Made by a program: the position numbers and the translations under genes
Notes under the pieces: generated by a model
Told to the model about the DNA's origin: nothing
Databases searched by the model: none
The model's input: the letters and a program-made list of their open reading frames with translations, nothing else
From: an uncultured Bacteroidota bacterium
Lineage (GTDB): Bacteria; Bacteroidota; Bacteroidia; Bacteroidales; P3
Reading direction: 5' to 3'
DNA: 42,287 nucleotides
Assembly: GCA_902784865.1 (NCBI GenBank)
Contig: CACZWL010000019.1
Coordinates: forward strand, 1 to 42,287
Shown: in pieces, positions 540 through 38,840 of the stretch
How the letters are laid out: the number at the start of each line of letters is the position of its first letter
Position numbering within the stretch: position 1 is the first letter of the stretch

Positions 540-802
540 GAAATGTTAATACCTGTTAAACGAGGCCTCGTTTAACAGGTATTAACATTTCGCTTTTCAG
601 TCACTTTTCATGTACCTACCATATACCTACCATTCACCTACCAGATGGCTTAAAATGCTGAGTATTAGTCGCTTGATTATAGTGTACTGTGTCTCAGGGG
701 TTTGCGGTGGTTGAAGTGCGGTATTCTGCCCATTGGAGACCTTCGGCGAAACACTCGGAAACGGTCCGTCAACTTTCCTAATAAGTGTTAATTTAACAGT
801 TT
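540..802. repeat. Dispersed intergenic repeat, copy 1 (second copy at 27449-27732)
   Basis: The element opens with a perfect 52-bp palindrome (540-591). It continues with three ACCTACC motifs 11 bp apart (614, 625, 636), then CAGATGGCTTAAAA, an ACTGTGT block, CAACTTTCCTAA and a closing TGTTAATTTAACA palindrome (789-801). The same landmarks occur in the same order at 27449-27732. I see no ORF inside. It lies between the FISUMP terminator and the 3' end of the convergent oxidoreductase gene. It may be a MITE-like or REP-like non-autonomous repeat; that is inference from the palindromic ends. Confidence 0.75.
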
Positions 803-838
803 TTTAAGAAATCGGCTCGTTGATTTCAATGTATGTGG

Positions 839-3800: not shown

Positions 3801-4072
3801 TGCACCTCCTTCACCCCGTCGACGGGGGTGATGCAGATGCGCCTCACCTTGCCGTCCACCAGCATCTCGCAGGCTCCGCATTTGCCTATGCCGCACTCCA
3901 GCGAGCGGTTGCGCCCGTCGAGCGAGTGGCTGTGCACCGGGAAGCCGGCCTCGTGCAGCGCCTTGGCCACGGTGTAGCCTTTGCGGCCTCCTATTTTCTG
4001 TCCCTCGAAAAGGAATTCCACCACTTCGGCATCGGGGATGTCGAGGATGGGGTGTTGGCTGATTCTGTACAT
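839..4072 (-). CDS. Single-chain multi-cofactor amine/amino-acid dehydrogenase-like protein (fused HcnA/HcnB/HcnC-type oxidoreductase)
   Basis: About 1077 residues. N to C: a [2Fe-2S] domain with C60, C65, C68, C80; an FAD/NAD(P) disulfide-oxidoreductase fold with GAGPAG (~123-128) and a second Rossmann motif GAGNIG (~270-275); a two-cluster ferredoxin segment with C463, C469, C472, C476 and C497, C500, C503, C507; a BFD-like [2Fe-2S] segment with CHC at 607-609 and C643, C648; and a C-terminal D-amino-acid-oxidase fold starting at AGGGIAGSAL (~709). In HcnABC, opine oxidases and the D-hydroxyproline dehydrogenase of Pseudomonas these parts are separate subunits. An amine or imino-acid dehydrogenase passing electrons through the clusters is therefore likely; the substrate is unknown. 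I chose ATG 4072 because the frame upstream, to ATG 4111, is a low-complexity leader. No strong promoter is visible, so it may be read from the 4574 gene. Confidence 0.8.
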   Translation of the reverse strand: MYRISQHPILDIPDAEVVEFLFEGQKIGGRKGYTVAKALHEAGFPVHSHSLDGRNRSLECGIGKCGACEMLVDGKVRRICITPVDGVKEVQRLDPERAPLPADESDVERQPLRIYKTTVAIVGAGPAGLACREQLRHFGIDCLVIDNNARIGGQFNMQTHQFFFFERQKKYGGMRGFDIASTLAGDNHDGILLNNTVWDILEGPRLAIKNLVSGQMAYVDAHHLVVATGAVPFMPAFENDDVPGVYTAAVFQKMMNQEHTLLGKRVLTVGAGNIGYLTSYQAVQAGAVIKAIIEAMPREGGFPVQANRVRRLGIPIMTGYTLVRAIPNADLTGITGAVIARCENFKPIAGTEQVIDDIDIINICTGLVPDNQLLAKGKELFGPHAYGVGDAIRIGEGTSAVLRGRQAAYEIATELGLRYNYDEYLDISRQYIDSQQHPVRLKEQPDLPSAERMAARPFVLIDCLYGFACNPCTFSCPQQAISKPSTSATPSVDYDKCIGCMECVNHCPGLAIFGYNMQKDWCFLPVEYAVEEGAEVYLVDNNGQAVGEGLVEKVLLKENKTDVARVKVGRLDGHLTDAKGFILKDRLPASLNTQNTQNSQKAPIYVCHCEDISDEQLLAAVGERTYISVDELKHITRMGMGPCRGKRCIARARGLLRSHGIELTGEPTPRAPLSNQVTLGDIFNEGRREVYIFPSGNDVRREEVKALIAGGGIAGSALFRYFAEAGFNPVMVNWSHGASWRNIGGGRPAFSNPDIADIAQHSHEIFKQIQSVCNINYKPTRYVNLVHDEATYRALDASRAWSDAYMVDRKDFKKEISPLWDDSRTTYSHALMTRDCWQATPGRVIDYVRAVGLQHGGQYYEDCELLSVWRQGEKVVALVRNHEGRYVEYTCDHFANAMGWGAEKFTDMLGIDTGLFPVKHQAFITRRLPLMGVGGDALDMIIDRRHYKGFSAVYGQQFAHTGQIIGCASPDTDAYETRQNINYNSREFLEIVSEVFAEWLPGLKEVSFLACWAGRYTEPRYIVDPEAGLLTGLRGHGFMLGQYLAKLYVDKYLGREVPSYMDDLALSGHGLSENAFK

Positions 4073-4122
4073 ATTGTGTGTGTTTAATGGATTAATATTC
4101 TTTATGTACAAGGTGTATGTGA

Positions 4123-4190: not shown

Positions 4191-4574
4191 CTACTGCTCC
4201 GACAGGATTTCGGTGACGATGAACTGGCTGTTGCCGCGCCATGGCAGGGTGCCGAAGTAGCGTTTCCAGCGCAGCTCCACGTGTTTGCCCGAGGCGCGCA
4301 TCAGGCGCTCGGCCACGCGCTGGTCGGTCACCGAGAACTTGAACGCGTTGCTCTGCAGATTGTTCATGCCACCGGCCGACTTGAAGCCGCTCTGTATCAT
4401 CTTGCCCTCGTAGGTCTTGAACACCACGCCCTCCTCCTGGAAGTAGTTGATTTCGCCTGCGTTGACGCCCGTGCTGTAGACGAAGCAGTAGCGGAAATAG
4501 ATGAACGCCGCCAAGGCTAAAACGACTATGGTAGAGGTTGTTGTGATGATTTTTGCTTTGCGTGTGATGGCCAT
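4191..4574 (-). CDS. Small membrane-anchored hypothetical protein
   Basis: 127 residues. One hydrophobic segment near the N-terminus (IVVLALAAFIYFRYCFVY) is followed by a ~95-residue soluble part containing STGVNAGEINYFQEEG, KTYEGKMIQSGF and LPWRGNSQFIV. I recognise it as a conserved Bacteroidales hypothetical; similar short proteins have been carried in databases under a misleading 6-phosphogluconate dehydrogenase label, which nothing here supports. The start at 4574 is set by the promoter: a TTG at 4598 lies inside the -7 box, while ATG 4574 has AAAGGA just upstream. The protein is probably held in the inner membrane with its C-terminal part outside. It lies 118 bp upstream of the oxidoreductase gene on the same strand. 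Confidence 0.75.
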   Translation of the reverse strand: MAITRKAKIITTTSTIVVLALAAFIYFRYCFVYSTGVNAGEINYFQEEGVVFKTYEGKMIQSGFKSAGGMNNLQSNAFKFSVTDQRVAERLMRASGKHVELRWKRYFGTLPWRGNSQFIVTEILSEQ

Positions 4575-4595
4575 ATCCTTTGTGTTTTGAGACTG

Positions 4596-4627
4596 CAAAA
4601 GTACGCATTTTTTGTCACCCGGACAAA
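4596..4627 (-). promoter_or_regulatory. Bacteroidota-type promoter of the small membrane protein
   Basis: On the minus strand TTTG (4624-4627) and TACTTTTG (4596-4603) are separated by exactly 20 bases, matching TTTG-N19/20-TAnnTTTG. The ATG at 4574 follows 21 bases after the -7 box. Confidence 0.8.
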
Positions 4628-4641
4628 TTTATTTCTTCCGT

Positions 4642-4743
4642 TCAGCCTGAAAACCGTGTCTTTGCTTCCTCGAAACGACCGTTGTGCAGCAGAAGGAAAT
4701 CGGCGGCCGCATGAAGATAGGCCAGTGCGGCGTACCGGTGGAA
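4642..4743 (-). pseudogene. Possible C-terminal gene remnant (HEPN-like composition)
   Basis: Just downstream of the nucleotidyltransferase, in the +1 frame relative to it, runs an open stretch with protein-like composition: YFHRYAALAYLHAAADFLL, then HNGRFEEAKTRFSG and a stop at 4642-4644. It has no start codon of its own. Minimal nucleotidyltransferases are commonly paired with HEPN proteins, which are all-helical and rich in Tyr, His and Ala, so this could be the tail of a deleted HEPN partner. It could also be chance; the assignment rests on composition and position only. Confidence 0.25.
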
Positions 4744-4750
4744 ATAAAAT

Positions 4751-5050
4751 CTAGGCAATGGCGATGCCTGAGCGCATTACGTCGTCGTACAATGGAGACG
4801 GATGCGCATCTTCAAGGAGCACGGGCTCCAGCAGGGTGCTGACTTTGCGCGTGGCCGACCACAGCTGTGGCATCACGCTGAACCAGTCGCTTTTAAGTTC
4901 GTGGATGACTATGGCCACGTCGATGTCGCTGTCGGGCGTGGCTGTTCCCTTGCTGTAGGAGCCATAAAGGTAGACTTTGGGGTTGTCAAACAGCCCCTCG
5001 ATGGCCTCTTTGTACTGGCGGACGAGTGCTATAGCCTGCTTTTGATCCAT
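4751..5050 (-). CDS. Minimal nucleotidyltransferase (MNT / pol-beta superfamily)
   Basis: 99 residues. The active-site signature GSYSKGTATPDSDIDVAIV carries the GS motif and the paired aspartates D-x-D that bind metal and NTP in the DNA polymerase-beta superfamily. The rest matches the short MNT domain in length, ending MRSGIAIA. By family knowledge, MNT proteins usually act with a HEPN partner as antitoxins that AMPylate the toxin; no complete HEPN gene is adjacent here. I chose ATG 5050 (MDQKQAIALV), the usual family start; an in-frame ATG at 5089 would add 13 residues but overlaps the forward promoter elements at 5082-5112. No convincing own promoter is visible. Confidence 0.8.
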   Translation of the reverse strand: MDQKQAIALVRQYKEAIEGLFDNPKVYLYGSYSKGTATPDSDIDVAIVIHELKSDWFSVMPQLWSATRKVSTLLEPVLLEDAHPSPLYDDVMRSGIAIA

Positions 5051-5112: not shown

Positions 5113-5393
5113 CACGGCAAGCGCGGCGCGGTGGGTCTGGCGTATGTCGCTGAGAATGTGGTTACCGATTATGATGTCTTGAAATTCGTCCCGGTTGGAT
5201 GGCTCGGGGGGACGAAGAACAGACGAAGAACAGTCCTAGGAGATACCTATGGATGCCCAGTGGGTGCCCTAGTGTCCGCCAGGTGCGCGGCACGGGTCGG
5301 CCAGGGGTGCCGACGGGGTGGCGCGGGCCGTTGCGTCAGGGGGCGCCGCCACTGGGCAGAAGGGCCTGAAAATAAGCCCCGCGAAAGAAAAAT
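5113..5393 (+). other. Intergenic region with an 11-bp-phased array, no confident gene
   Basis: The first ~95 bases can be read as GLAYVAENVVTDYDVLKF, which looks protein-like but has no good start and runs into repeat sequence; it may be a gene scrap. From 5213 the sequence falls into 11-base units: CGAAGAACAGA, CGAAGAACAGT, CCTAGGAGATA, CCTATGGATGC, CCAGTGGGTGC, CCTAGTGTCCG, fading into GC-rich sequence. The first 36 bases (5213-5248) recur exactly at 33787-33822. Confidence 0.6.
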
Positions 5394-5452: not shown

Positions 5453-7264
5453 ATGAAGAACATACGCAACTTCTGCATTATTGCACACATCGACCACGGC
5501 AAGAGCACCCTCGCCGACCGCCTGCTGGAGGTGACAAACACCGTCAGCCAGCGCGAAATGCAAGACCAGGTGCTCGACGATATGGACCTCGAGAAGGAGC
5601 GCGGCATCACCATCAAGAGCCACGCCATCCAGATGCAGTACCGCGTCCCCGCGGACAGGAATAACGAGTACGCCGGCCAGGAGTTCACCCTGAACCTTAT
5701 CGACACCCCCGGCCACGTCGACTTCAGCTACGAGGTCAGCCGCGCCATCGCCGCCTGCGAGGGCGCTCTCCTCGTCGTCGACGCCACCCAGGGCATCCAG
5801 GCCCAGACCATCTCCAACCTCTACCTCGCCCTCGAGAACGACTTGGAAATCATCCCCGTGATGAACAAAATCGACCTCGACAGCGCCATGCCCGACGAGG
5901 TGGCCGACGAGATTGTCGACCTCCTCGGCTGCTCGCACGACGACATCCTGCGTTGCTCCGCCAAGACCGGCATGGGTGTGCCGGAGATACTCGACGCCAT
6001 CGTCGGCCGCATCCCCGCCCCCACGGGCGACCCCGCGGCTCCGCTCCAGGCTCTGGTCTTCGACTCGGTCTTCAACCCCTTCCGCGGCATCATCAGCTAC
6101 TTCCGCATCATGAACGGCACCCTCCGCACGGGCGACCACGTCAAGTTCTACTCCACCGGCCGCGAGTACGACGCCGACGAGATCGGCGTGCTCCGCCTCA
6201 ACATGGAGCCCCGCAAGGAGCTCTCAGCCGGCAACGTCGGCTATATCATCTCCGGCATCAAGAGCTCGAAGGAGGTGCGCGTCGGCGACACCATCACCCA
6301 CGTCGCCACCCCCTGCGAGCAGCCCATCGAGGGCTTCGAGGCCGTCAAGCCCATGGTCTTCGCCGGCGTCTACCCAGTCGACACCGACGACTACGAGGAG
6401 CTGCGTGCCAGCATCGAGAAGCTGCAGCTCAACGATGCCTCGCTCACCTTCGAGCCCGAGTCGTCGCTAGCCCTCGGCTTCGGCTTCCGCTGCGGATTCC
6501 TCGGCCTGCTCCACATGGAAATCATACAGGAACGCCTCACCCGCGAGTTCAACATGGACGTCATCACCACCGTGCCCAACGTGCAGTACAAAGTCAAGCT
6601 CACCAACGGCACCGAGCTCGACGTCTACAACCCCTCCGGCATGCCCGAACCCAACAACATCGCCGAGGTCTACGAGCCTTACATCCACGCCCAGATCATC
6701 ACCAAGGCCGACTTCATCGGTCCGGTAATAAAACTCTGCATGGACAAGCGCGGCATCCTCAAAAACCAGAACTACCTCACCACCGACCGCATCGAAATCA
6801 CCTTCGACCTGCCTCTCGGCGAGGTGGTCTTCGACTTCTACGACAAGCTCAAGTCCATCTCCAAGGGCTACGCCTCGTTCGACTACTACGTCAACGGCTA
6901 CCAGCCCTCCAAACTCGTCAAGCTCGAGATACTCCTCAACGGCGACCCCGTCGACGCCCTCTCCACCCTCACCTATGTCGACAACGCCTACCCCATCGGC
7001 CGCAAGATGTGCGAGAAGCTGAAGGACCTCATCCCCCGTCAGCAGTTCGACGTCGCCATCCAGGCCGCCATCGGCAGCAAGATCATCGCCCGCGAGACCG
7101 TGCGCCAGGTGCGCAAGGACGTCACCGCCAAGTGCTACGGCGGCGACATCACCCGCAAGCGCAAGCTCCTCGAAAAGCAGAAGGAGGGCAAGAAGCGCAT
7201 GCGCCAGGTCGGCAACGTCGAGGTGCCGCAGAGCGCCTTCCTCGCCGTCCTCAAACTCGATTAA
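5453..7264 (+). CDS. lepA: Elongation factor 4 (LepA), ribosome back-translocase GTPase
   Basis: 603 residues, the usual LepA length. The GTPase domain shows the P-loop [14 protein letters not shown], switch [15 protein letters not shown] and NKIDL. The C-terminus carries the LepA-specific domain ending [16 protein letters not shown], then [15 protein letters not shown]4 binds the ribosome and GTP and remobilises stalled or mistranslocated ribosomes; it acts in the cytoplasm and at the inner membrane. The start is the first ATG after a canonical promoter. A lipoprotein gene follows after 33 bases on the same strand. Confidence 0.97.
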
Positions 7265-24845: not shown

Positions 24846-26327
24846 ATGAATAAGAAATTTAATTGTCTGTTGTACCTCGGCGTGGCGTTGCTTGTTTTTG
24901 TCGCAGCGTGCGGCCGTGCCGACCAAGCGCCGGTGCAGCTGGAGTCCGAGGCCGACCTTGTCGGGATGCGTGTGGCCTACAATTCCGGCTCGGTCTACGA
25001 AATCATGTTCTCGCCGCGCACCGACATCGACAAGCTCAGTTTCAATGTCCAGACTGACTGCATCGAGGCTCTTGTCGGCGGCCAGGTCGATGTCTATACC
25101 GACGACGACTGCCTCATCCCGCCTGACGAGCAGCGCCGCCTCGGCATCCGTCTGGCGCTCCGCGGCGAGAAAGCCTTCCCCTGCGGCATGGCCTTCCGCA
25201 AGGAGTCGGTGGAGCTGCGCGAAGCGTTCAGCCATTTCGTCGATTCGCTCGTTGCCACCGGCGAGATGCAGGCCATATACGAGCGTTGGTTCCTCTGCGA
25301 CACCCCCTCGACCCTGCCCATGGCCGACCTCGGCCCCGAGCCGCAAGGCAAGCCCCTGCGCGTCGGCGAGGCCGTCAACATGCCTCCCGTCGCCTTCCCC
25401 GTGGAGCGCGAGTGGCGCGGCCTCGAGCCTGACCTCGTGCAGCGTTTTGCCCGTCATATCGGACGCCCCGTGGAGTTCGTCTATATCCCGACAACCTCGT
25501 TCGTGGCGGCCCTGCTGAGCGGCAACGTCGATATTCTCGGCGGCGGCATCTTCATCACCGAGGAGCGCCAGAAGACCCTTTCGTTTGCCTCGAGCCACTT
25601 CAGTGCGCACCCCGGCTACTATGTCAAGGACGACTCCCTCAAACCGCGCTTAGGCTTCGGCCAGCGCATGAAGGAGATGTTCCGCAACAACCTCGTCGTC
25701 GAGAACCGCTGGCGCTACATCACCGAGGGTCTGTGGGAGACGGTCAAGATTTCGCTCCTCTCCCTCTTGCTCGGCTCCATCCTCGGCGCAGGCGTCTGCT
25801 GGATGCGCATGAGCCGCCGCCGCTGGCTCTCCACCACGGCCGGCGTCTACGTCGAGATTATGCGCGGCATACCCATGCTGGTGTTCCTGATGATCATGTT
25901 CTATGTCGTCTTCTCGGGCACGGGTCTGAGCGCCACGGCCGTGGCCATCGTGGCCTTCGCCCTCAACTTCGCCGCCTACGTCAGCGAGATGTTCCGCACC
26001 GCCATCCTCGCCGTCAGCCACGGCCAGACCGAGGCGGGCCTCGCCATAGGCTTCAACCGCTGGCAGACCTTCTTCTACATCGTCGCCCCGCAGGCCCTGC
26101 GCAACGTGCTGCCCGTCTACAAGGGCGAGTCCGTCTCGCTGGTCAAGAACACCTCCATCGTCGGCTATATCGCCATCCAGGACCTCACCCGCGCCAGCGA
26201 CATGATACGCAACCGCACCTTCGACGCCTTCTTCCCCCTGCTCATCGTCACCGTCATCTACTTCATCCTCGCTTGGCTCCTCGGCAAGCTCCTCGACCTA
26301 ACCGTTAAAAACACCGCAAAGAAATGA
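24846..26327 (+). CDS. Amino-acid ABC importer: substrate-binding domains fused to the permease
   Basis: 493 residues. A hydrophobic N-terminus ends in a lipobox-like VAAC (Cys22). Residues ~35-155 resemble the second lobe of a family 3 binding protein (LVGMRVAYNSGSVYEIMF, AIYERWF), ~170-265 a first-lobe segment (LRVGEAVNMPPVAF, GLEPDLVQRFARHIG, VDILGGGIFITEER), and ~285-490 a HisM/GlnP-type permease with five or so membrane segments. The permease has the EAA loop HGQTEAGLAIGFNRWQTFFY, which contacts the ATPase. Such fused importers take up polar amino acids; the specificity is not readable. The next gene, the ATPase, overlaps by four bases (ATGA). Confidence 0.88.
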   Translation: MNKKFNCLLYLGVALLVFVAACGRADQAPVQLESEADLVGMRVAYNSGSVYEIMFSPRTDIDKLSFNVQTDCIEALVGGQVDVYTDDDCLIPPDEQRRLGIRLALRGEKAFPCGMAFRKESVELREAFSHFVDSLVATGEMQAIYERWFLCDTPSTLPMADLGPEPQGKPLRVGEAVNMPPVAFPVEREWRGLEPDLVQRFARHIGRPVEFVYIPTTSFVAALLSGNVDILGGGIFITEERQKTLSFASSHFSAHPGYYVKDDSLKPRLGFGQRMKEMFRNNLVVENRWRYITEGLWETVKISLLSLLLGSILGAGVCWMRMSRRRWLSTTAGVYVEIMRGIPMLVFLMIMFYVVFSGTGLSATAVAIVAFALNFAAYVSEMFRTAILAVSHGQTEAGLAIGFNRWQTFFYIVAPQALRNVLPVYKGESVSLVKNTSIVGYIAIQDLTRASDMIRNRTFDAFFPLLIVTVIYFILAWLLGKLLDLTVKNTAKK

Positions 26328-27403
26328 TCACCATCCGTCACCTCAGCAAACGATACATCAACCCCGACGGCTCTGTCTTCGAGGTTCTTAAGGACGTCAA
26401 CTGCGAAATCAGCAAGGGCGAGGTCATCAGCATCATAGGCCCCTCGGGCACCGGCAAGAGCACCTTCCTCCGCGCCATCAACCTCCTCGACCCGCCCTCC
26501 GGCGGCGAGATTATCTTCGACGGCGAGAACATCCTCGCCAAGGGCTACCCCCTCAACAAGATGCGCCAGAAGATGGGCATGGTCTTCCAGAGCTTCAACC
26601 TCTTCGAGCACCTCAGCATCCTCGACAACGTCACCTTCGCCCCCATGAAGCTCCACGGCCTCTCCCGCCAGCAGGCCGAGACCGAGGCCATGGCCATGCT
26701 CCGCAAAGTCGGCATGGCCGAGAAAGCCGGCGCCATGCCCTCCGACCTCTCCGGCGGCCAGAAGCAGCGCGTAGCCATAGCACGCTGCCTCGCCATGCAC
26801 CCCGAGGTCATCCTCTTCGACGAGCCCACCTCGGCCCTCGACCCCACCATGGTCGGCGAGGTCCTCAGCGTACTCCGCCAGCTCGCCTCCGAAGGCATGA
26901 CCATGCTCATCGTCACCCACGAGATGAAGTTCGCACGCGACGTCAGCACGCGCATCTTCTTCATGAACGAGGGCATCATCTACGAGGACGGCACGCCCCA
27001 GCAGGTCTTCGAGAACCCCGTCCACAGCGCCACCAAGGCCTTCGTCCAGCGCATTCACAAGCTCCTCTTCGAGGTCGACAGCCCCGACTTCGACCTCCTC
27101 GGCGTCCACTCGCAGGTGGCGGCTTTCTGCAACAAATACAATATCAGCGCCAAACGCGACGCCGCCGACACCCTGGTCGACCTCGCGGCCTCCTCGCTCA
27201 TGGCCGGCAGCCACCCCTATACCCTCCGCCTCTCCTACGGCGAGCATGCCGCCGTCGCGGCACTCGACATCATGAAGGAAGGCATCGACGCCTCGCCCCT
27301 CAAGGACGCCGACCCACAGACGGTGGCCGCCATGCGCGCGCTCTGCTCCGAACTTGTCGAAGAACCCACCACCCGCGGCTTCAGGCTCAAGTTCATCCTC
27401 TGA
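26324..27403 (+). CDS. Amino-acid ABC importer ATP-binding protein with a C-terminal extension
   Basis: 359 residues. GlnQ/HisP-type ATPase: Walker A GPSGTGKST, Q-loop VFQSFNLFEH, signature LSGGQKQRVAIARCLA, Walker B VILFDEPTSALDP and the switch His in VTHEM. It powers the permease encoded just upstream, with an ATGA overlap. The usual family length is ~245 residues; here ~110 more follow, beginning about HSQVAAFCNKYNISAKRDAA and ending RGFRLKFIL. I do not recognise this extension; its position suggests regulation of transport. No clear terminator follows before the repeat at 27449. Confidence 0.92.
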   Translation: MITIRHLSKRYINPDGSVFEVLKDVNCEISKGEVISIIGPSGTGKSTFLRAINLLDPPSGGEIIFDGENILAKGYPLNKMRQKMGMVFQSFNLFEHLSILDNVTFAPMKLHGLSRQQAETEAMAMLRKVGMAEKAGAMPSDLSGGQKQRVAIARCLAMHPEVILFDEPTSALDPTMVGEVLSVLRQLASEGMTMLIVTHEMKFARDVSTRIFFMNEGIIYEDGTPQQVFENPVHSATKAFVQRIHKLLFEVDSPDFDLLGVHSQVAAFCNKYNISAKRDAADTLVDLAASSLMAGSHPYTLRLSYGEHAAVAALDIMKEGIDASPLKDADPQTVAAMRALCSELVEEPTTRGFRLKFIL

Positions 27404-27448
27404 CCCCTCGGCGGCACGATTTGCCCGTGGCGCCAAGCCGTCGCGACC

Positions 27449-27732
27449 GAAATGTTAATGGATGTTAAACGCACCCTTGTTTAACATCCATTAACATTTC
27501 CATTTTCCACTCACCAACCATAGTCGAACCATATACCTACCATTCACCTACCAGATGGCTTAAAAGACTGTAAATTAGCGTATTAAATGTATATTACTGT
27601 GTACCAGCGTCTTGCGGCGGTTTTTACCACCCTTTTCCGCCCCTGCAGACCCCTTGCGGACGCATTTTCTACCCCTCGCCAACACCCCGCCAACTTTCCT
27701 AACAAATGTTAAAAACCTATTTTTTAACATTT
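27449..27732. repeat. Dispersed intergenic repeat, copy 2
   Basis: Opens with 22-bp inverted arms (27449-27470 and 27479-27500) around GCACCCTT, then TCGAACC, ACCTACC, ACCTACC at 11-bp spacing (27524, 27535, 27546), CAGATGGCTTAAAA, ACTGTGT, CAACTTTCCTAA and closing 12-bp inverted arms (27704-27715 and 27721-27732). The order matches copy 1 at 540-802, while the palindrome arms differ in sequence. Confidence 0.75.
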
Positions 27733-27767: not shown

Positions 27768-27879
27768 TACCTTAATTCTCTTTATAATGGAATAATGTAA
27801 ATAGTTGATAATGAGATACTTCCCCCCTGCGCACTACCGTCATGTGCTGAAAACCAGAAGAACCAACAATGTTATCGCA

Positions 27880-30800
27880 ATGAATAGACCATTTGCCCTC
27901 TTTTTTGCACTCCTGCTTTCCTGCGGCATGTTGAGAGCCGCCGCCGTCGACGAGGCCACTGCCAAGACCGTCGCCGCCCACGTGTTGGGCGTAAGTGAAT
28001 CGCAGCTGGTCAACCGCACAACAAGACTCTATAGTAGCTACCAGCAGAATATGTTCTTGTTTGTGCCGCAGAGCGGTACGGGCTTTGCCATCATCTCGGC
28101 CACCGACTATGCGCTGCCCGTCATCGGCTATTCCACCACGACGGTGTTCGACTCGGTGCTCTCGCGCAACTCGTACTACGCCATATACCAATGGCTCAGT
28201 GTCTGCAACTCCCAGCTCAACACGTTGAAGGGCGGCTCGTATGCCGCCTCGGCAACTGTGACGGCGCAGTGGGCGCAATTGAAAACCGGTGCGCCAACGG
28301 CGACGCAGGCTGCCATCAGCCCGATGCTGGCCACCAAGTGGGGCCAGACGGGCGACTATGCGCTGCGCACCCCGGTGGTGACGAGCACCGGTGCGCACCG
28401 CCCGACAGGCAGCGTGGCTGTGGCCATGGCGCAGGTGATGAAATACTTCGGGCTCCCCCAGCGTGGTACCGGTAGCGTCTCTTACAGCAGTGGCAGCCCG
28501 TCCGTGAGCGTCTCGGTCAGCTTCGACACCGTCTACAACTACGCCAACATGCCCAACCAGCTGACCTCCGGCAGCACCGGCCTGCAGAAACAGGCCGTCA
28601 GCCACCTGATTTACCACGCCGGCGCATCAATCAGCACGTACTACGCCGCCAGCTACTCCCGTGCGGGAACCACGGGAGGCAACACCATAGCCACCGCGCT
28701 GAGGAACTATTTCAAGTTCCGCTCCACAACAACCTTCATCAACTACTCCTCGACCTACTACACCACGTGGACCACCAAACTGATGGACGAGCTGGTCCTC
28801 GGCCGCCCCATCATCTACACCGGCAACTACTACCTGAACGGCGTCATCGACGGCTGCGACAGCTGGGGCAACTTCCACTTCAACTGGGGCCTGGGCGGCA
28901 TGTTCGACGGCTACTGGGCCGTGGGCTCGCTCAACCCGGGCAGTTACAACTACAGCAACACCAACCAGTATGCCGTCATCGGCATAGCTCCCACCAGCGA
29001 GGAGACCGTCACCGTCACCGCCCAGCCCAACGACCCCGCCTGGGGTTCCGTCAGCGGCGCCGGCAACACTACCAAATACACGACCGTCACCCTCACTGCC
29101 AACACCGTCCGCAACTACAACTTCACCACCCGCTTCGTCCGCTGGTCCGACGGCGTCACCACCAACCCCCGCCAGATCTATGTCACGGATGATGTCAACC
29201 TCACCGCCGAGTTCGAGAAGTTCGACAACGTCACCATCGCCATCGCCCCCAACAACCCCGACTGGGGCACCGTCAGCGGCGGCGGCCGCTACGCACCCTT
29301 CGACGTCGTCACCCTCCGCGCCACGCCCGTCCGCAAGACCTACTACTCCACGCGCTTCGTCCAGTGGTCCGACGGCGACACCCGCAACCCCAGCTCCTTC
29401 TACGCCGGCAACGAGGACCAGTCCTACATAGCCGAGTTCGAGTACATACCCCACACCCACATCGAAGTCGAGTCCAGCGAGCCCGACTGGGGCACCGTCA
29501 GCGGCGGCGGCCACTACGCCCCCACCGAGAGCGTCACCCTCACCGCCACGCCGGTGCAGGGCGCCACCTTCGTGCGCTGGGCCGACGGCAGCACCGCCAA
29601 CCCCCGCACCTTCACCGCAGGCAGCACCGACCAGCGCTACGTCGCCTTCTTCACCTATGTCGGCAATGTCACCATCACCGCCACGCCTGCCAACGCCAGC
29701 CAGGGCACCGTCAGCGGTAGCGGCAGCTACCTGGTGGGCAACCCCGTCACCCTCACGGCTGTCCCCGCACAGGGCTACACCTTCAGCCGCTGGAGCGACG
29801 GAAACACCCAGAACCCGCGCCGTTTCAACGCCGCCTCCGACCTCACTCTCACCGCACAGTTCGCCTCCGGCGGCACCTCCGTGGCGGCCGTCACGCCCGA
29901 CAACCCCGTCGTCCTCGACGACCGCGAGAGCCACGCCTGGAGCTACTACTCCGACCCCGACAACCCCGTCCGCAGCCTCAACCCCGCCGACGTCAAGATC
30001 ACCTACCTCGGCTACGGCACCAAGACCATGTATAGCAGCAACGCCGCCACCCCCACCGGCAGCCCCGACCAGAACGTGGCCGCCAGTGCCGTCGGCATCG
30101 GCATCGACGCGCCCACCAAGAACGCCTACGTCTACTACAAGACCCTTGAGCGTATCGACGGCCCCACGGCCCTCAGCGCCGAGCGCGCCACGGGGCCCTG
30201 CAAATACCATGTCATCCCCAACCCCTTCTCCATACGTCCCACCTACGGCAGCGGCGACACCCGCTGGCGCGGCTTCTACAAGTGGCGCGTCCGCCGCCTT
30301 GTCGGCGGCGCCATCTTCACCGACCGCGCACGCACCCAGATGGTGGCCCAGGGCGGCATGGTCGACGCCGACCAGGAAATATATATCGCCCCTGCGGCGG
30401 AGTACGGCATGGAGATCGAATTCGAGGCCATCTGGGCCCGCGCCTTCGTCTTCGGCCCCACAGGCCCCATGGAGGGCATCAACGACACCCTCGTCACCAC
30501 CGCCATGCGCGCCACCGGCACCAACGCCTACGAGCGCAACTTCGTCGTCCTCACTCCCGAGAACATCGCCCCCATCACCACCAGCGGCACCACCAAGCTG
30601 AGCTACAACATGGAGCCCGCCACTATCACCGCCGTCTATCCCAACGGCACCGACGGCACCTCGAGTGCCCGCCTCACCGCCGTGCCTAACGTGGCCCTCA
30701 ACCAGCACTTCTTCTGCATGGCCGACACCAAGTTCGAGTACATCAACATCAACGGCACCGACAAGGCCTTCGCCGGCAACGCCTTCAACCTCGCCATGGG

Positions 30801-33558
30801 TCGTGGCATCAAGAACTCGCAGTCGAGCAGCAGCGCCTGCTTGCTCAAGCTGGTGGGCATGAGCAGCACCAGCCCCAAGCGGCGCTACACTATGAAGTAT
30901 ACCATCGACACCAGCTATGTCGAAACCACCGACACTACCTGGAATGCCGACCATACGTCCTACACCATCGCCATGAAGGCCGTCTACGACACTACGGCAC
31001 GGTGGCGCGAATACCGTATCGACGATGTCAACATCAACGATGAGTACGACTACAATGACGGCCACTTCGTGATACGCATCGAGAGCGGCAGGTACGGAGA
31101 TGTCATTCCTTTCTTTGGCGGCGTCTCTCCCAGCAATGCCAGCTCTTCCTGGACTGCCAATGTCAACACCGCCTCTCCTGGTACCGGCAATCAGCCCGGT
31201 ATTTATTATGGGTATTCCACCCCCTACACCTACACGATGTATGCTGTCTTCGGCAGCGACTATGACCGCAGTACAGGGCAGAACGACTTGCTCACCACCA
31301 CCAACTACCTGCAGGGAGCCTACTCCACATGGAGCAATCTGTCGGCCAGAACAAAAAATGTAGACCAATACGTGTGGGTTGTCAAGAGCGGCAACCACCT
31401 GCCCGGCCGCATGGGCTACGGCCAGGGCGGAACGGCCACCTTCTACCTCGGTACCGTGGGTGACCCGTACACCGGCAGCTACTATGCCCGTCGCCGCATC
31501 GACGTCGAGGGCGGCCTGGTTCCCGGTGTGTCGGGTGGTCAGGATTGGTCGACAGGCAACTATACCGACCAGTATGATACCATAGTGACCATACGCGTGC
31601 GTGGTGGCCATGTGCGCGGCATCATCCACGGTTCGGGCGAATATGTCTCGGCCAAAGGCAGGCGCCGCATTGTCATCACCGGCGGCACCATCAACGGATG
31701 GGTGGCCGGCGGCTGCAACGGCAGCCGCACCGACGGCGGCGAGCTTATCGGCGACACCTACGTCTACATCGGTGGCAAGGCGAGGCTCGAACCATCGGCT
31801 GCCGACCCCTTCATCAACTCGTCGAAAGGCGGCAACGTCTTCGGTGCCGGCAGCGGCAACAGCGGCGCCGCCGGTACCACCGCCACCGTCGGCAAGGTGC
31901 AGAACTCCAACATCGTCATCGCCGACAGCTGCTACATAGCCCGCAACGTCTACGGCGGCGGCAACTATGGCGGCGTCATCGGCGGCGGCTCGAAGATATA
32001 CCTCCTCGGCGGCACCGTAGCCGGCAAGGTCTTCGGCGGCGCCAACCAGCAGATGGGCAAGCAGGTGGACATCGTGATGCGCGGCGGCAAGGTCAAGGGC
32101 GGCGTCTATGGCGGCTCCAACCGCCTGGGCAACGTCAGCGGCCCCGTCACCGTCCGCATCGAGGGCGGCACCGTGGGCGAGGAGGGCTGCCTCGACACCC
32201 TCGGTTGCGTCTTCGGCTCTGGCTACGGCGTCAACTCCGCCGTCCTGGGCAGCGTCGAGGTATTCGTCGGCGACAAGGCCACGCGCAAGACCCACCGCGA
32301 CGACCCCGTCATCTACGGCAGCGTCTACGGCGGCGGCTTCAGCGCGGCCTACAATGCCGTAGGCCATAACTACCATGTCACCGCTTGGAACGGCGCCGTC
32401 AAGGGCAATGTCTTCGGCGGCGGCCTCGGCCCCACGGCCGTCATCAGGGGCGATACCCGCGTCAACCTCTTCGGGACCTCCAACGTCAGCGGCAACGTCT
32501 ACGGTGGCGGCAATATGGGCAAGGTCACGGGCAACACCTATGTCGTCGTCGGCGACGACACGCGCACCTATACCCTCACCGTCGAGGCCAACGATGCCTC
32601 GATGGGCACCGTCACCGGCGGCGGCGACTACCTGGCTGCCTCCGACGTGCGCCTCCGCGCCACGCCCGCCAGCGGCTACCGCTTCGTGCAGTGGGACGAC
32701 GGCAACACCGAAAACCCCCGCTCCGTCACCGTCGTCGGCGACGTCACCTACACCGCCGTCTTCGAAGCCATCACCACCTACGCCCTCACCGTCAATGCCA
32801 ACGACGCCTCGATGGGCACCGTCGCAGGCAGCGGCACCTACGAGGCTGGAACCTACGCCACCATCAGCGCCACACCCAACACGGGCTACCGCTTCCTCCG
32901 CTGGGACGACGGCAGCAACGAGAACCCCCGCACCGTCAGCGTCACCGGCATCGCCACCTATACCGCTGTCTTCGACGTACTGCCTGCCGGATGGGTCGAC
33001 CTCGGCCTGCCCAGCGGCCTGCTCTGGACCGAGACCAACCTCGGCGCCAGCAGCCCCGAGCAGTACGGCGACTACTACGCCTGGGCCGAGACTACCCCCA
33101 ACAAGGCCAGCTACTCCCACTCCACCACCGCCTACTATAGCGGCTCGGCCTACACCAAGTACAACGCCACCGACGGCCTCACCACCCTCGAATCCTCCGA
33201 CGACATCGCCTACCTCACCTTCGGCGGCGACGCCCACATACCTACCCTGGCCGAGTGGCTCGAGCTGCTGCAGTACACCACCGTCTCCACCGAGACGCTC
33301 AACGGCGTCAAGGGGCGCCGCTTCACCAGTACCCGCAACGGCAACTCCTTCTTCGTGCCCTACACGGGCTACAAGAGCGGCAATTACACACAAGAAGCCA
33401 CAAGCGTCACCTACTTCTGGACCTCGTCGCTCAGCCCGAGCAGCTATTTGCAGGCCACCGACATCTATATCAACGACGGCCACGCCGGCCTTTACGGCAA
33501 CAGCACCGCCGGCGAAGGCCGCTACTACGGATTCCCCATCCGCGCCGTGCGCCGCTGA
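27880..33558 (+). CDS. Giant secreted protein: C10 pseudo-peptidase, InlB-like repeats, glycine-rich repeat region, FISUMP domain
   Basis: 1892 residues. Signal peptide (FALFFALLLSCGMLRAAA); a Spi-type propeptide ~23-120 (GTGFAIISATDYALPVIGYS); a streptopain-family (C10) domain ~140-354; four InlB-like repeats ~371-663 (DWGTVSGGG, FVRWADGS); the central and glycine-rich regions shared with 13475-19453; two more InlB-like repeats ~1561-1704; and a C-terminal FISUMP domain (WVDLGLPSGLLWTETN ... FPIRAVRR). In C10 enzymes the nucleophile lies in GCVATAMAQ; here it is GSVAVAMAQ (Ser178). The His of GHAF before V-x-DG is Leu319, although WGQ and NWG are kept. The domain should be proteolytically dead, perhaps a binding module. 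ATG 27811 would add 23 residues before the signal peptide and has a leader resembling that of the mutase gene. Confidence 0.85.
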   Translation: MNRPFALFFALLLSCGMLRAAAVDEATAKTVAAHVLGVSESQLVNRTTRLYSSYQQNMFLFVPQSGTGFAIISATDYALPVIGYSTTTVFDSVLSRNSYYAIYQWLSVCNSQLNTLKGGSYAASATVTAQWAQLKTGAPTATQAAISPMLATKWGQTGDYALRTPVVTSTGAHRPTGSVAVAMAQVMKYFGLPQRGTGSVSYSSGSPSVSVSVSFDTVYNYANMPNQLTSGSTGLQKQAVSHLIYHAGASISTYYAASYSRAGTTGGNTIATALRNYFKFRSTTTFINYSSTYYTTWTTKLMDELVLGRPIIYTGNYYLNGVIDGCDSWGNFHFNWGLGGMFDGYWAVGSLNPGSYNYSNTNQYAVIGIAPTSEETVTVTAQPNDPAWGSVSGAGNTTKYTTVTLTANTVRNYNFTTRFVRWSDGVTTNPRQIYVTDDVNLTAEFEKFDNVTIAIAPNNPDWGTVSGGGRYAPFDVVTLRATPVRKTYYSTRFVQWSDGDTRNPSSFYAGNEDQSYIAEFEYIPHTHIEVESSEPDWGTVSGGGHYAPTESVTLTATPVQGATFVRWADGSTANPRTFTAGSTDQRYVAFFTYVGNVTITATPANASQGTVSGSGSYLVGNPVTLTAVPAQGYTFSRWSDGNTQNPRRFNAASDLTLTAQFASGGTSVAAVTPDNPVVLDDRESHAWSYYSDPDNPVRSLNPADVKITYLGYGTKTMYSSNAATPTGSPDQNVAASAVGIGIDAPTKNAYVYYKTLERIDGPTALSAERATGPCKYHVIPNPFSIRPTYGSGDTRWRGFYKWRVRRLVGGAIFTDRARTQMVAQGGMVDADQEIYIAPAAEYGMEIEFEAIWARAFVFGPTGPMEGINDTLVTTAMRATGTNAYERNFVVLTPENIAPITTSGTTKLSYNMEPATITAVYPNGTDGTSSARLTAVPNVALNQHFFCMADTKFEYININGTDKAFAGNAFNLAMGRGIKNSQSSSSACLLKLVGMSSTSPKRRYTMKYTIDTSYVETTDTTWNADHTSYTIAMKAVYDTTARWREYRIDDVNINDEYDYNDGHFVIRIESGRYGDVIPFFGGVSPSNASSSWTANVNTASPGTGNQPGIYYGYSTPYTYTMYAVFGSDYDRSTGQNDLLTTTNYLQGAYSTWSNLSARTKNVDQYVWVVKSGNHLPGRMGYGQGGTATFYLGTVGDPYTGSYYARRRIDVEGGLVPGVSGGQDWSTGNYTDQYDTIVTIRVRGGHVRGIIHGSGEYVSAKGRRRIVITGGTINGWVAGGCNGSRTDGGELIGDTYVYIGGKARLEPSAADPFINSSKGGNVFGAGSGNSGAAGTTATVGKVQNSNIVIADSCYIARNVYGGGNYGGVIGGGSKIYLLGGTVAGKVFGGANQQMGKQVDIVMRGGKVKGGVYGGSNRLGNVSGPVTVRIEGGTVGEEGCLDTLGCVFGSGYGVNSAVLGSVEVFVGDKATRKTHRDDPVIYGSVYGGGFSAAYNAVGHNYHVTAWNGAVKGNVFGGGLGPTAVIRGDTRVNLFGTSNVSGNVYGGGNMGKVTGNTYVVVGDDTRTYTLTVEANDASMGTVTGGGDYLAASDVRLRATPASGYRFVQWDDGNTENPRSVTVVGDVTYTAVFEAITTYALTVNANDASMGTVAGSGTYEAGTYATISATPNTGYRFLRWDDGSNENPRTVSVTGIATYTAVFDVLPAGWVDLGLPSGLLWTETNLGASSPEQYGDYYAWAETTPNKASYSHSTTAYYSGSAYTKYNATDGLTTLESSDDIAYLTFGGDAHIPTLAEWLELLQYTTVSTETLNGVKGRRFTSTRNGNSFFVPYTGYKSGNYTQEATSVTYFWTSSLSPSSYLQATDIYINDGHAGLYGNSTAGEGRYYGFPIRAVRR

Positions 33559-33687: not shown

Positions 33688-33786
33688 ATTCAAAAAAAAA
33701 CGCCGACGGGTGAAACAAAACGCCGTCGCCTACGTTATACACTAGGCGGCCCTCTCGCCGCATGCCCTCCCATACCCCGGAGAATC

Positions 33787-33864
33787 CGAAGAACAGACGA
33801 AGAACAGTCCTAGGAGATACCTTGAAGGTACCTGGAGGACCCGGAGCACCCTAGGAGCGGCTAC
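33787..33864 (+). repeat. 11-bp-phased array upstream of the mutase promoter
   Basis: Units of 11 bases: CGAAGAACAGA, CGAAGAACAGT, CCTAGGAGATA, CCTTGAAGGTA, CCTGGAGGACC, CGGAGCACCCT, AGGAGCGGCTA. The first 36 bases equal 5213-5248. The array ends ~50 bases before the -33 box. Confidence 0.7.
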
Positions 33865-33986: not shown

Positions 33987-36140
<2,154 letters not shown>

Positions 36141-37249: not shown

Positions 37250-38056
37250 CTATCGGGGCCACTCGGCCGTCAGACTGTCGGCCGACGGCAGCGCCGCGCT
37301 CTGGCCGCTGGCGGTGCCCTTGGCCGTGTCGCGCATCATGTGGTTGTGCAGCGTCTGTATGATGCGTGTGCTCTGCGGCTTCTTCTCCCCCTCCTTGGCG
37401 CGGATGCGCGGATTGGTCTGGTAGAGCACCATCGAGATGACCAGGTACAGCGCGAAGGCAATCAGTATGCCGCCCATCAGCTTGTTGAACAGGTTCATCC
37501 TGCGGGCGGTGAAGAAGGTCTGCATCATGGCCGCCAGGCGGCACTTGGCGATGTCGGTGGCCAGCGATGCCAGCAGCATGCCGCAGAAGAAGAGGTAGCG
37601 GGCCGACCGCGTCAGGTCCATCTCGGCCGAGAGGAAGGTGATGATGGTCACCCAGTAGACCCATATCAGCGGGTTCAACCCGTTCATCAGCAGGCCCGAG
37701 AGGACCAGCTGCCAGTTCGACGTGGCCTGCTCGGCCTGGAAGCGCAGGCGGCTGCCCGCGCGCGTCTCCTTGCGCGTCTTGCAGCGGAACGTCCGCACTC
37801 CGAAGATTCCTATCGCCAAACCGCCTATGCTACCCACCCAAATGTTGTGCAGCAGGGCGTTCATATTGACATTTGACAGTACCGTCAGTATCAGCGAGAC
37901 TACCACAATATCGCTCACGCTCACTCCCACGGCATACCACACGGCCTTCTTGTAGCCATGGTGTATGCTGTTCTGTATCAGCGAGAAAAAGGCTGGCCCC
38001 ACGCTGAAAATCAGCGAGAGCAGGACGCCGCAGACTATGCCAATCAGTATCTCCAT
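37250..38056 (-). CDS. LysE-family exporter
   Basis: 268 residues, an integral membrane protein with about six hydrophobic segments. The N-terminus MEILIGIVCGVLLSLIFSVG then PAFFSLIQNSIHHGYK follows the LysE pattern G-x-GPA-F, with GLLMNGLNPLIWVYWVTII matching the second conserved P-containing segment. The family exports amino acids or related small molecules; the substrate is unknown. A charged tail of ~45 residues follows the last membrane segment. ATG 38056 is chosen because an earlier in-frame ATG (38098) lies upstream of the -7 box. Confidence 0.85.
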   Translation of the reverse strand: MEILIGIVCGVLLSLIFSVGPAFFSLIQNSIHHGYKKAVWYAVGVSVSDIVVVSLILTVLSNVNMNALLHNIWVGSIGGLAIGIFGVRTFRCKTRKETRAGSRLRFQAEQATSNWQLVLSGLLMNGLNPLIWVYWVTIITFLSAEMDLTRSARYLFFCGMLLASLATDIAKCRLAAMMQTFFTARRMNLFNKLMGGILIAFALYLVISMVLYQTNPRIRAKEGEKKPQSTRIIQTLHNHMMRDTAKGTASGQSAALPSADSLTAEWPR

Positions 38057-38106: not shown

Positions 38107-38166
38107 AAAATATTTTCGCAATGGTACGATTTGGCTACTTTTGCCCCGCAACCTTCCAGATCGCTC

Positions 38167-38233
38167 CAGAGTCGAACCAGAGTCGAACCAGAGTCGAACC
38201 AGAGTCGAACAAGATACCTACCAGACACCTGCC
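38167..38233 (+). repeat. 11-bp-phased tandem array between divergent promoters
   Basis: Four exact copies of CAGAGTCGAAC (38167-38210) are followed by ACCTACC (38216) and ACCTGCC (38227). The core 7-mers TCGAACC/ACCTACC start at 38172, 38183, 38194, 38205, 38216 and 38227, all 11 bp apart. It lies between the exporter and yceD promoters. Confidence 0.8.
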
Positions 38234-38280
38234 GGATGCCTCGCGAAAAAGGCGAAAAAATACCCCGTGGTTAATTTTTT

Positions 38281-38333: not shown

Positions 38334-38840
38334 ATGAGTCGTCATGACGATATTATAATCCGCTTCAGTGGCTTGAAACCAGGGTTTTACGACTTCAGTT
38401 TCGCGCTGGCGGACGAGTTCTTTGAGGAGTGGAATTATGACGAAATTGTGGGCGGAAACGTGAAAATCGACACCAGAATGGAGCGCAAAGAGCACCTCCT
38501 GATGTTGAATTTTCACCTCGCAGGGCAGGTCACCCTCCTCTGCGACCGCTGCCTCGGCGAAATCACCCTCCCCATCGAGGGCGACGAGCAGCTCTGCGTG
38601 CGCTTCAGCGACACCGAGGAGAGCGACAGCGAAGACCTCGCCATCCTCCCCGAAAAGGCCGTGGAGATCGACCTCGCGCAGTGGCTCTACGAATACGTAG
38701 CCGTCCGCATACCCCTGCAACATGTACACCCCGACGGAGAATGCGACCCCGAAATGGTCCGTTTCATCGCCGCCGACGCTCCCCAGCGCAGCAACGACGA
38801 CATCGACCCCCGATGGGAAGCACTGAAACAGTTGAAATAA
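38334..38840 (+). CDS. yceD: DUF177/YceD-family protein
   Basis: 168 residues. The middle shows the family pattern FHLAGQVTLLCDRCLGEITL with its CxxC, and the protein ends in an acidic C-terminal half with DIDPRWEALKQLK, typical of the DUF177 tail. It is encoded 20 bases before rpmF, the conserved arrangement across bacteria. The family is linked to 23S rRNA or large-subunit maturation in plants and bacteria; the exact role is unsettled. Confidence 0.9.
   Translation: MSRHDDIIIRFSGLKPGFYDFSFALADEFFEEWNYDEIVGGNVKIDTRMERKEHLLMLNFHLAGQVTLLCDRCLGEITLPIEGDEQLCVRFSDTEESDSEDLAILPEKAVEIDLAQWLYEYVAVRIPLQHVHPDGECDPEMVRFIAADAPQRSNDDIDPRWEALKQLK

Follow-up and report, generated by a model that had tools for sequence, protein, structure and literature searches.

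Intergenic arrays with a constant 11-bp step and changing words in a group of uncultured gut and rumen bacteria

To understand what short words repeated at an exact 11-bp step are doing between bacterial genes, we started with the window, by which we mean the whole 42,287-nt stretch of DNA analysed here, from an uncultured Bacteroidota bacterium. The original prediction had named five sites with this period, and all five were found at those positions by TRF, direct reading and lag-11 scores. TRF reported a period-11 array at 38166-38214 (4.5 copies, 97% matches) and further ones at 609-643, 27528-27553, 5211-5233 and 33787-33807, and the five highest lag-11 scores of the window lie at 38177, 610, 5211, 27517 and 33784. 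A layout of 7-mers with 4-base spacers could be read directly at 38153-38245, 614 and 27524, and ACGAAGAACAG twice followed by TCCTAGGAGAT at 5213 and 33787 (Table 1). The array neighbours among nine window proteins scanned belong to the LysE, YceD, LepA, mutase and ABC families, and no Rfam RNA family exceeded its gathering score in the window. Two neighbouring genes have features of their own: within 4191-5050 a small gene with a nucleotidyltransferase domain (4751-5050) lies beside a 127-aa gene without a Pfam match, a pair that we presume might be HEPN/MNT-like, and the large gene at 27811-33558 contains a tandem pair of 210-bp repeats (32565-32975).

Table 1. Period-11 arrays and array-bearing elements of the window, with their flanking genes
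Feature	Position	Strand	Composition	Flanking genes
Array 1	38153..38245	+	seven in-phase 11-bp words and a partial eighth; in order TCGCTCCAGAG, TCGAACCAGAG x3, TCGAACAAGAT, ACCTACCAGAC, ACCTGCCGGAT	divergent: 37250-38056 (-, LysE family); 38334-38840 (+, YceD family)
Class C array	5206..5249	+	ACGAAGAACAG x2, TCCTAGGAGAT, ACC..	divergent: 4751-5050 (-); 5453-7264 (+, LepA family)
Class C array	33775..33838	+	ACGAAGAACAG (second copy complete, first nearly), TCCTAGGAGAT, ACCTTGAAGGT, ACCTGGAGG	tandem: 27811-33558; 33987-36140 (methylmalonyl-CoA mutase family)
Class A element, copy 1	541..812	+	left palindrome, array 590-650, right palindrome	convergent: 2-421; 839-4111
Class A element, copy 2	27447..27732	+	architecture as copy 1; array 27514-27560	tandem: 26324-27403; 27811-33558

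The arrays had also been proposed to differ in sequence while keeping the step. Words do vary and the step is kept, but the arrays at 614 and 27524 are not independent, because both sit in copies of one dispersed element of ~270 bp (class A). Nor do all units face the same side of the DNA, as had been supposed: since the step is 11 bp and not 10.5 bp, the faces drift along an array.

Next, we asked how far the signal extends in the source genome (2.40 Mb, 43 contigs). The check set beforehand was for a genome-wide excess at lag 11 in intergenic DNA; the excess was found, and the arrays are not limited to a few sites. In a sample of ~440 kb, intergenic identity at lag 11 (0.2908) was the maximum over lags 4-40, and 37.8 kb of intergenic DNA held 39 lag-11 arrays, against none in one mononucleotide shuffle; another 21 lay in the 406 kb classed as coding by the initial ORF rule. 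Lags 10, 12 and 13 gave 6, 6 and 4 intergenic arrays in this sample and, with the harmonic at 22 set aside, the runners-up by array count were lag 7, with 20 arrays, and its multiple, lag 14, with 14. The pattern ACCTACC-N4-ACCTACC has 201 matches on many contigs and its reversed control none, although these are not 201 independent origins because many are dispersed copies of two repeat elements. TCGAANN..ACCTACC, allowing 0-16 free bases, gave 184 matches (control 5); CCTACC..CCTACC gave 268 (control 20). The step is 11 or 22 in 99 of the 100 matches listed for the former and in 94 of the 100 listed for the latter, with lengths taken by eye. The listed places are mostly class A and class B elements and therefore show copies of arrays, not equally many independent arrays. 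A regular spacing of class A/B arrays at ~10 kb failed a better control: the spacing CV was 0.66 for 72 arrays on C1-C9, where a uniform null gave 0.865 (28 of 5000 as low or lower), and 0.846 for the 19 arrays on C1 and C2 against 0.795 under an intergenic-length null (2661 of 4000 at or below).

The phenomenon is real and extends well past the window: lag-11 arrays are frequent within the genus and close to background beyond it. Density per 10 kb of intergenic DNA was 12.0 in the source genome (52 arrays in 43.2 kb, a set that includes the window and L050, chosen for hits). The 17 samples of the same genus gave 5.2 (17 arrays in 32.6 kb; 9 of these samples had one or more), which falls to 3.7 (9 arrays in 24.0 kb) when five stretches picked on contigs with pattern hits are left out (L065, L066, L067, L068 and L070). 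Density was 0.9 in 15 samples from the family's other genera (3 arrays in 33.6 kb) and 0.5 in 18 samples from other families (2 in 38.9 kb). This comparison excludes samples below 5 kb (3/20 same-genus, 5/20 other-genera and 2/20 other-family stretches); L062 is all N. Gene calls came from a hexamer model built in-house, trained on short or pooled loci for the analyses of spread, mutS loci and G087, and low-complexity arrays were excluded from the analyses of density, mutS loci, gene context in relatives and promoter boxes. Of the family's 148 other genomes, 15 have the pattern ACCTACC-N4-ACCTACC, none with more than the 20 matches of G108.

Lag 11 was also the strongest lag in the best 80 of 246 mutS loci, taken from named Bacteroidales and Bacteroidetes MAG records, with 71 arrays against 2 after shuffling; lags 22, 7, 8, 14, 10, 12 and 13 gave 65, 61, 42, 40, 27, 17 and 10. 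These are not counts of independent sites, because the loci are largely one region across species. Upstream of MutS the signal is weak, since among 48 regions lag 11 attains 15 of 22 in 9 and lag 10 in nearly as many, 7 (low complexity unfiltered). Among 30 loci examined over 600 bp upstream of the gene for YceD, a lag-11 array of at least 16 of 22 is present in 7, with differing words (L091, L092, L096, L104, L108, L114 and L120), and a lag-7 array passing that threshold in 6. Intergenic arrays at lags 7 and 14 form the next class of short tandem repeats after lag 11 in the 80 mutS loci, and one locus, L058 of G061, has eight arrays at lag 7 and none at lag 11.

Such counts bear on a rival explanation, in which the arrays are non-functional tandem repeats: slippage or template switching by 11 bp, perhaps primed by palindromes, would grow and homogenise arrays by whole words, and their intergenic placement would merely reflect no selection against them there. 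The frequency of lags 7 and 14 relative to lag 11, in the mutS loci and upstream of YceD, speaks for this account. At one convergent gap, 6 of 10 loci hold multi-word arrays (L181, L182, L184, L185, L186 and L187), of which L182 and L186 share one word type. L184 and L187 have common flanks there but a core that differs in three adjacent words together, which also speaks for repeat growth. Slippage alone leaves it unexplained, however, why unrelated words should keep one step. Among 145 four-word arrays we counted 31 word classes (whole sequences were scanned, and some arrays may be coding). Across these classes variable columns cluster weakly, with 104 for the best 4-column windows against 98.6 (sd 3.3) and an adjacent-column correlation of 0.061 against -0.100 (sd 0.061).

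The full form of the arrays is seen in a related genome, G087, where a palindromic centre carries about four 11-bp words per side that fade outward. The centre CTCCTACCNNGGTAGGAG occurs 67 times in G094, 55 times in G087 and 39 times in G101. In a sample of 49 G087 dyads, which gives 98 arms, the information per word declines outward from 20.8 bits, a value largely set by the search pattern, to 14.9, 10.6, 8.0, 3.3, 1.9 and 0.3 bits, and 34 of the 49 have at least four words on both arms. Of the TAYCA cores, 158 of 159 share one phase at distances of 11-33 bp from the centre, as do 67 of 70 at 33-66 bp and 3 of 7 at 66-99 bp. The fifth base of words 2-4 holds between -0.02 and 0.13 bits, against 1.6-2.2 for the best base; the first base of word 4 is likewise near zero. 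The same positions tend to be conserved across these three words (mean rho 0.47, a value equalled or exceeded in 30 of 3000 permutations). Arms of the same dyad are slightly less alike than arms of different dyads (6.12 against 6.36 of 11 positions; 2980 of 3000 permutations gave at least the observed value), so the arms are not mirrored, an argument against a conserved hairpin there. The profile of 11 G101 dyads resembles that of G087.

Inverted arrays around a centre also occur with other words and in other species at many loci (52 matches, 44 without N runs; the eight with N runs were left out, then two duplicates). In 24 dyads of other words and species, arm words of the same index resembled each other more closely than those of different index (8.17 against 7.17), and L235, L246 and L241 are near-perfect palindromes; arm copying or pairing may therefore matter in these. 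Mirroring reached p=0.018 in 18 TACCA dyads from several species and was absent in the 49 dyads of G087 alone; mixed species dialects may lie behind that signal. In L184 the core is uniform along each arm but differs between the two arms, a pattern suggestive of local duplication. The arrays of the source genome are mostly one-sided.

We then turned to gene context. The 49 G087 dyads divide into 22 tandem, 19 divergent, 7 convergent and 1 at an edge, with none inside called genes. Among relatives, 71 arrays comprised 32 in divergent gaps (27% of intergenic length), 30 in tandem (63%) and 9 in convergent gaps (9%), with sites recurring because the loci are largely one region. The 59 intergenic arrays of the source genome (a count that omits 7 of 66, in called genes or at an edge) comprised 18, 35 and 6, and divergent gaps are not clearly enriched there, because they make up 26% of intergenic length. 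Where class A/B arrays of the source genome stand in tandem gaps, 11 of 13 have the orientation of the genes by our own count. Distances to TAnnTTTG boxes, which the original prediction had singled out for listing, proved not to be fixed: in 47 pairs of an array and a TAnnTTTGC box, the array lies upstream of the box in 39 (23-546 bp), in the leader in 7 and overlapping it in 1, without a control for gap geometry.

These placements weigh on the suggestion that the arrays act at the RNA level, as phased C-rich loading sites for Rho or as long 3' hairpins. Rho sites have been described with spaced C residues, the ACCTACC strands are C-rich and mostly co-oriented with genes in the tandem gaps above, and some dyads are near-perfect palindromes. 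Rho utilisation sites, however, are placed in transcribed RNA 3' of genes, and many arrays lie in divergent gaps, in all three sets counted above. Class C words are purine-rich, the G087 arms are unmirrored, and most boxes have the array upstream. We consider an RNA signal very improbable, and both hairpins and Rho sites are disfavoured as the main reading on gene context, box positions and the unmirrored G087 arms.

Because part of the signal is dispersed in copies, we also weighed a mobile or gene-converted family, in which class A (~270 bp) and class B (~105 bp) would be small elements and the array their recognition region; subterminal repeats serve as such a region for some transposases. 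In the ~440-kb sample we aligned 12 copies of class A and 11 of class B. Class A has matches at E <= 1e-5, carrying other array words, in 3 of 119 other genus genomes (class A relatives: G065, G119 and G108), and some arms at different loci are near copies (at most 49 of 55 positions, against 39-42 in column shuffles), too alike for an independent origin. Past the arrays in G087, however, no common flank was found (words 7-9 at 0.05-0.3 bits), some sites are common to different species, and viral contigs searched with two array patterns gave no match. The Y1, RAYT-like family PF01797 has two matches in the source genome and is matched in 62 of 149 family genomes; it was not found in the array-bearing draft genomes G094, G096, G121, G080 and G130, the first of which has the 67 centre matches. 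The RAYT reading is accordingly disfavoured, and a mobile family in general seems improbable to us.

Several other features were noted around these elements. The class A palindromes (541-812 and 27447-27732) read TGTTAATNNNTGTTAAAC.. and AAATGTTAAA..TTTAACATTT, and in several copies their variable bases change on both sides jointly. A distinct family of dispersed palindromes, containing GGCCTCACCCCC and CTCTCCTTTCAAGAGAGGGG, occurs at L046:4661-5310, L033:4183-4567, L042:18412-18454 and L038:18568-18613, and CCTAGG arrays with a 10-bp step adjoin class C 11-bp words at L039:10847-10893 and L042:9775-9842. The motif CTGTAAATCAG, with three exact intergenic copies in the source-genome sample, stands beside some arrays; it occurs in such gaps in the source genome and relatives (L032:16323-16623, L033:178-1046, L037:15809-17138, L182 and L186).

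To see how sites change between species, we compared G101 with G087. At 6 of 13 distinct G101 dyad loci (three repeats removed from 16 entries) a flanking protein matched the neighbour of a G087 dyad, at three of them on both sides, a figure that stands without a random control. In eight cross-species pairs covering six G087 sites (three pairs share one site; two near-identical G095 pairs were left out), the difference at the spacer base was 0.46, against 0.06-0.29 for the remaining bases of words 2-4. For words 2-9 outward it was 0.20, 0.18, 0.24, 0.38, 0.38, 0.48, 0.51 and 0.54, in an ungapped comparison whose outer values are inflated by whole-word shifts. Offsets of outer words between orthologous arms were multiples of 11 in 16 of 16, which we do not count as evidence because periodic arrays yield this by themselves. 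Array loci of G095 are nearly identical to those of G087 (L161 and L302, L167 and L301); with one genome per species in the set, this is either recent transfer or cross-binning of MAG contigs. Growth by whole words is favoured by the apparent gain, judged by eye, of a word beside the centre in L177 against L282 and in L322 against L284. Against it, a free spacer base stands beside conserved core bases in the same words, both within one genome and across species. Altogether we regard repeat growth without function as rather unlikely.

We favour the view that the arrays are double-stranded docking sites, positioned between genes, for a putative protein that would assemble cooperatively with one sequence-contact unit per 11 bp, and we give this reading a probability of about 0.5. 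Conserved cores with a free spacer base, phase held over four to five words, the dyad form, the unmirrored G087 arms and the intergenic placement, observed directly along with the period itself and some cross-species sites, fit sites in duplex DNA. The palindromic centre would be where assembly starts, spreading over about four words per arm with weakening contacts, and the most likely role would be that of an architectural or insulating complex between operons. Since the preferred word differs between species, and perhaps more than one such protein exists in the group, words would turn over while the step stays constant. The phased nucleoprotein structure of the original prediction is thus favoured by the fading dyads, kept cores, free spacer base and unmirrored arms, yet it is unproved: no candidate binding protein or function for the arrays was found, which counts against docking. 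So do the diversity of words, the weak clustering of columns, the likeness of arms within and between loci, the differing cores of L184, the abundance of lags 7 and 14, the one-sided arrays of the source genome and the failed spacing.

More tentatively, the arrays could belong to a genus-wide chromosomal nucleoprotein system, nucleating at palindromic centres between operons and extending along both arms in 11-bp steps, its code rewritten between species and its geometry fixed; this possibility, which we hold to be doubtful, would be akin to centromere or satellite systems that evolve fast. A protein ruler would be expected to leave such a trace in DNA, the step constant and the words variable. 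Should there be such a protein, the genus, with its 120 genomes, offers a natural experiment in which changes in the words should be matched by changes in the surface with which the protein reads them. Should there be none, an 11-bp growth process of a new kind shapes bacterial intergenic DNA.

In the limited literature set searched, no report matching such 11-bp arrays was found, and four known systems are the nearest comparisons. REP/BIME sequences are dispersed, intergenic palindromic repeats of lineage-specific sequence associated with RAYT transposases. The arrays are likewise dispersed, intergenic and palindromic, with lineage-specific sequence; they differ in the unmirrored arms of G087, and no Y1 transposase was found in several array-bearing genomes. 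In OmpR/PhoB sites a single motif is repeated a few times at a regulated promoter. Their direct-repeat geometry, as in the pho box, is 7 + 4 bp and is equalled here, and PhoP of M. tuberculosis is described as binding such 7-bp direct repeats with 4-bp spacers cooperatively (PMC4832192). Unlike them, the arrays have many sites and many words and are often centred on a dyad. OmpR/PhoB has one motif per regulator; several words of the arrays are unrelated within one genome, where more than one regulator may be at work. The set promoter distance of OmpR/PhoB sites has no counterpart in a range of 23-546 bp upstream of TAnnTTTGC boxes. Plasmid R1 parC likewise consists of tandem 11-bp iterons, of which ParR requires at least two (PMC9426499), but it is a plasmid centromere at a single site beside parM and parR, and the arrays lie at many chromosomal places. 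Finally, TAACTGA heptamers form many short intergenic direct-repeat sets, as the arrays do, in Beggiatoaceae, Cyanobacteria and some Bacteroidetes. There are 169 sets in one genome, mostly just upstream of start codons, with a step of 7, one word across lineages and one indirect repeat only (PMC4679880). From these and other STRR heptamers the arrays described here differ in their unit of 11.
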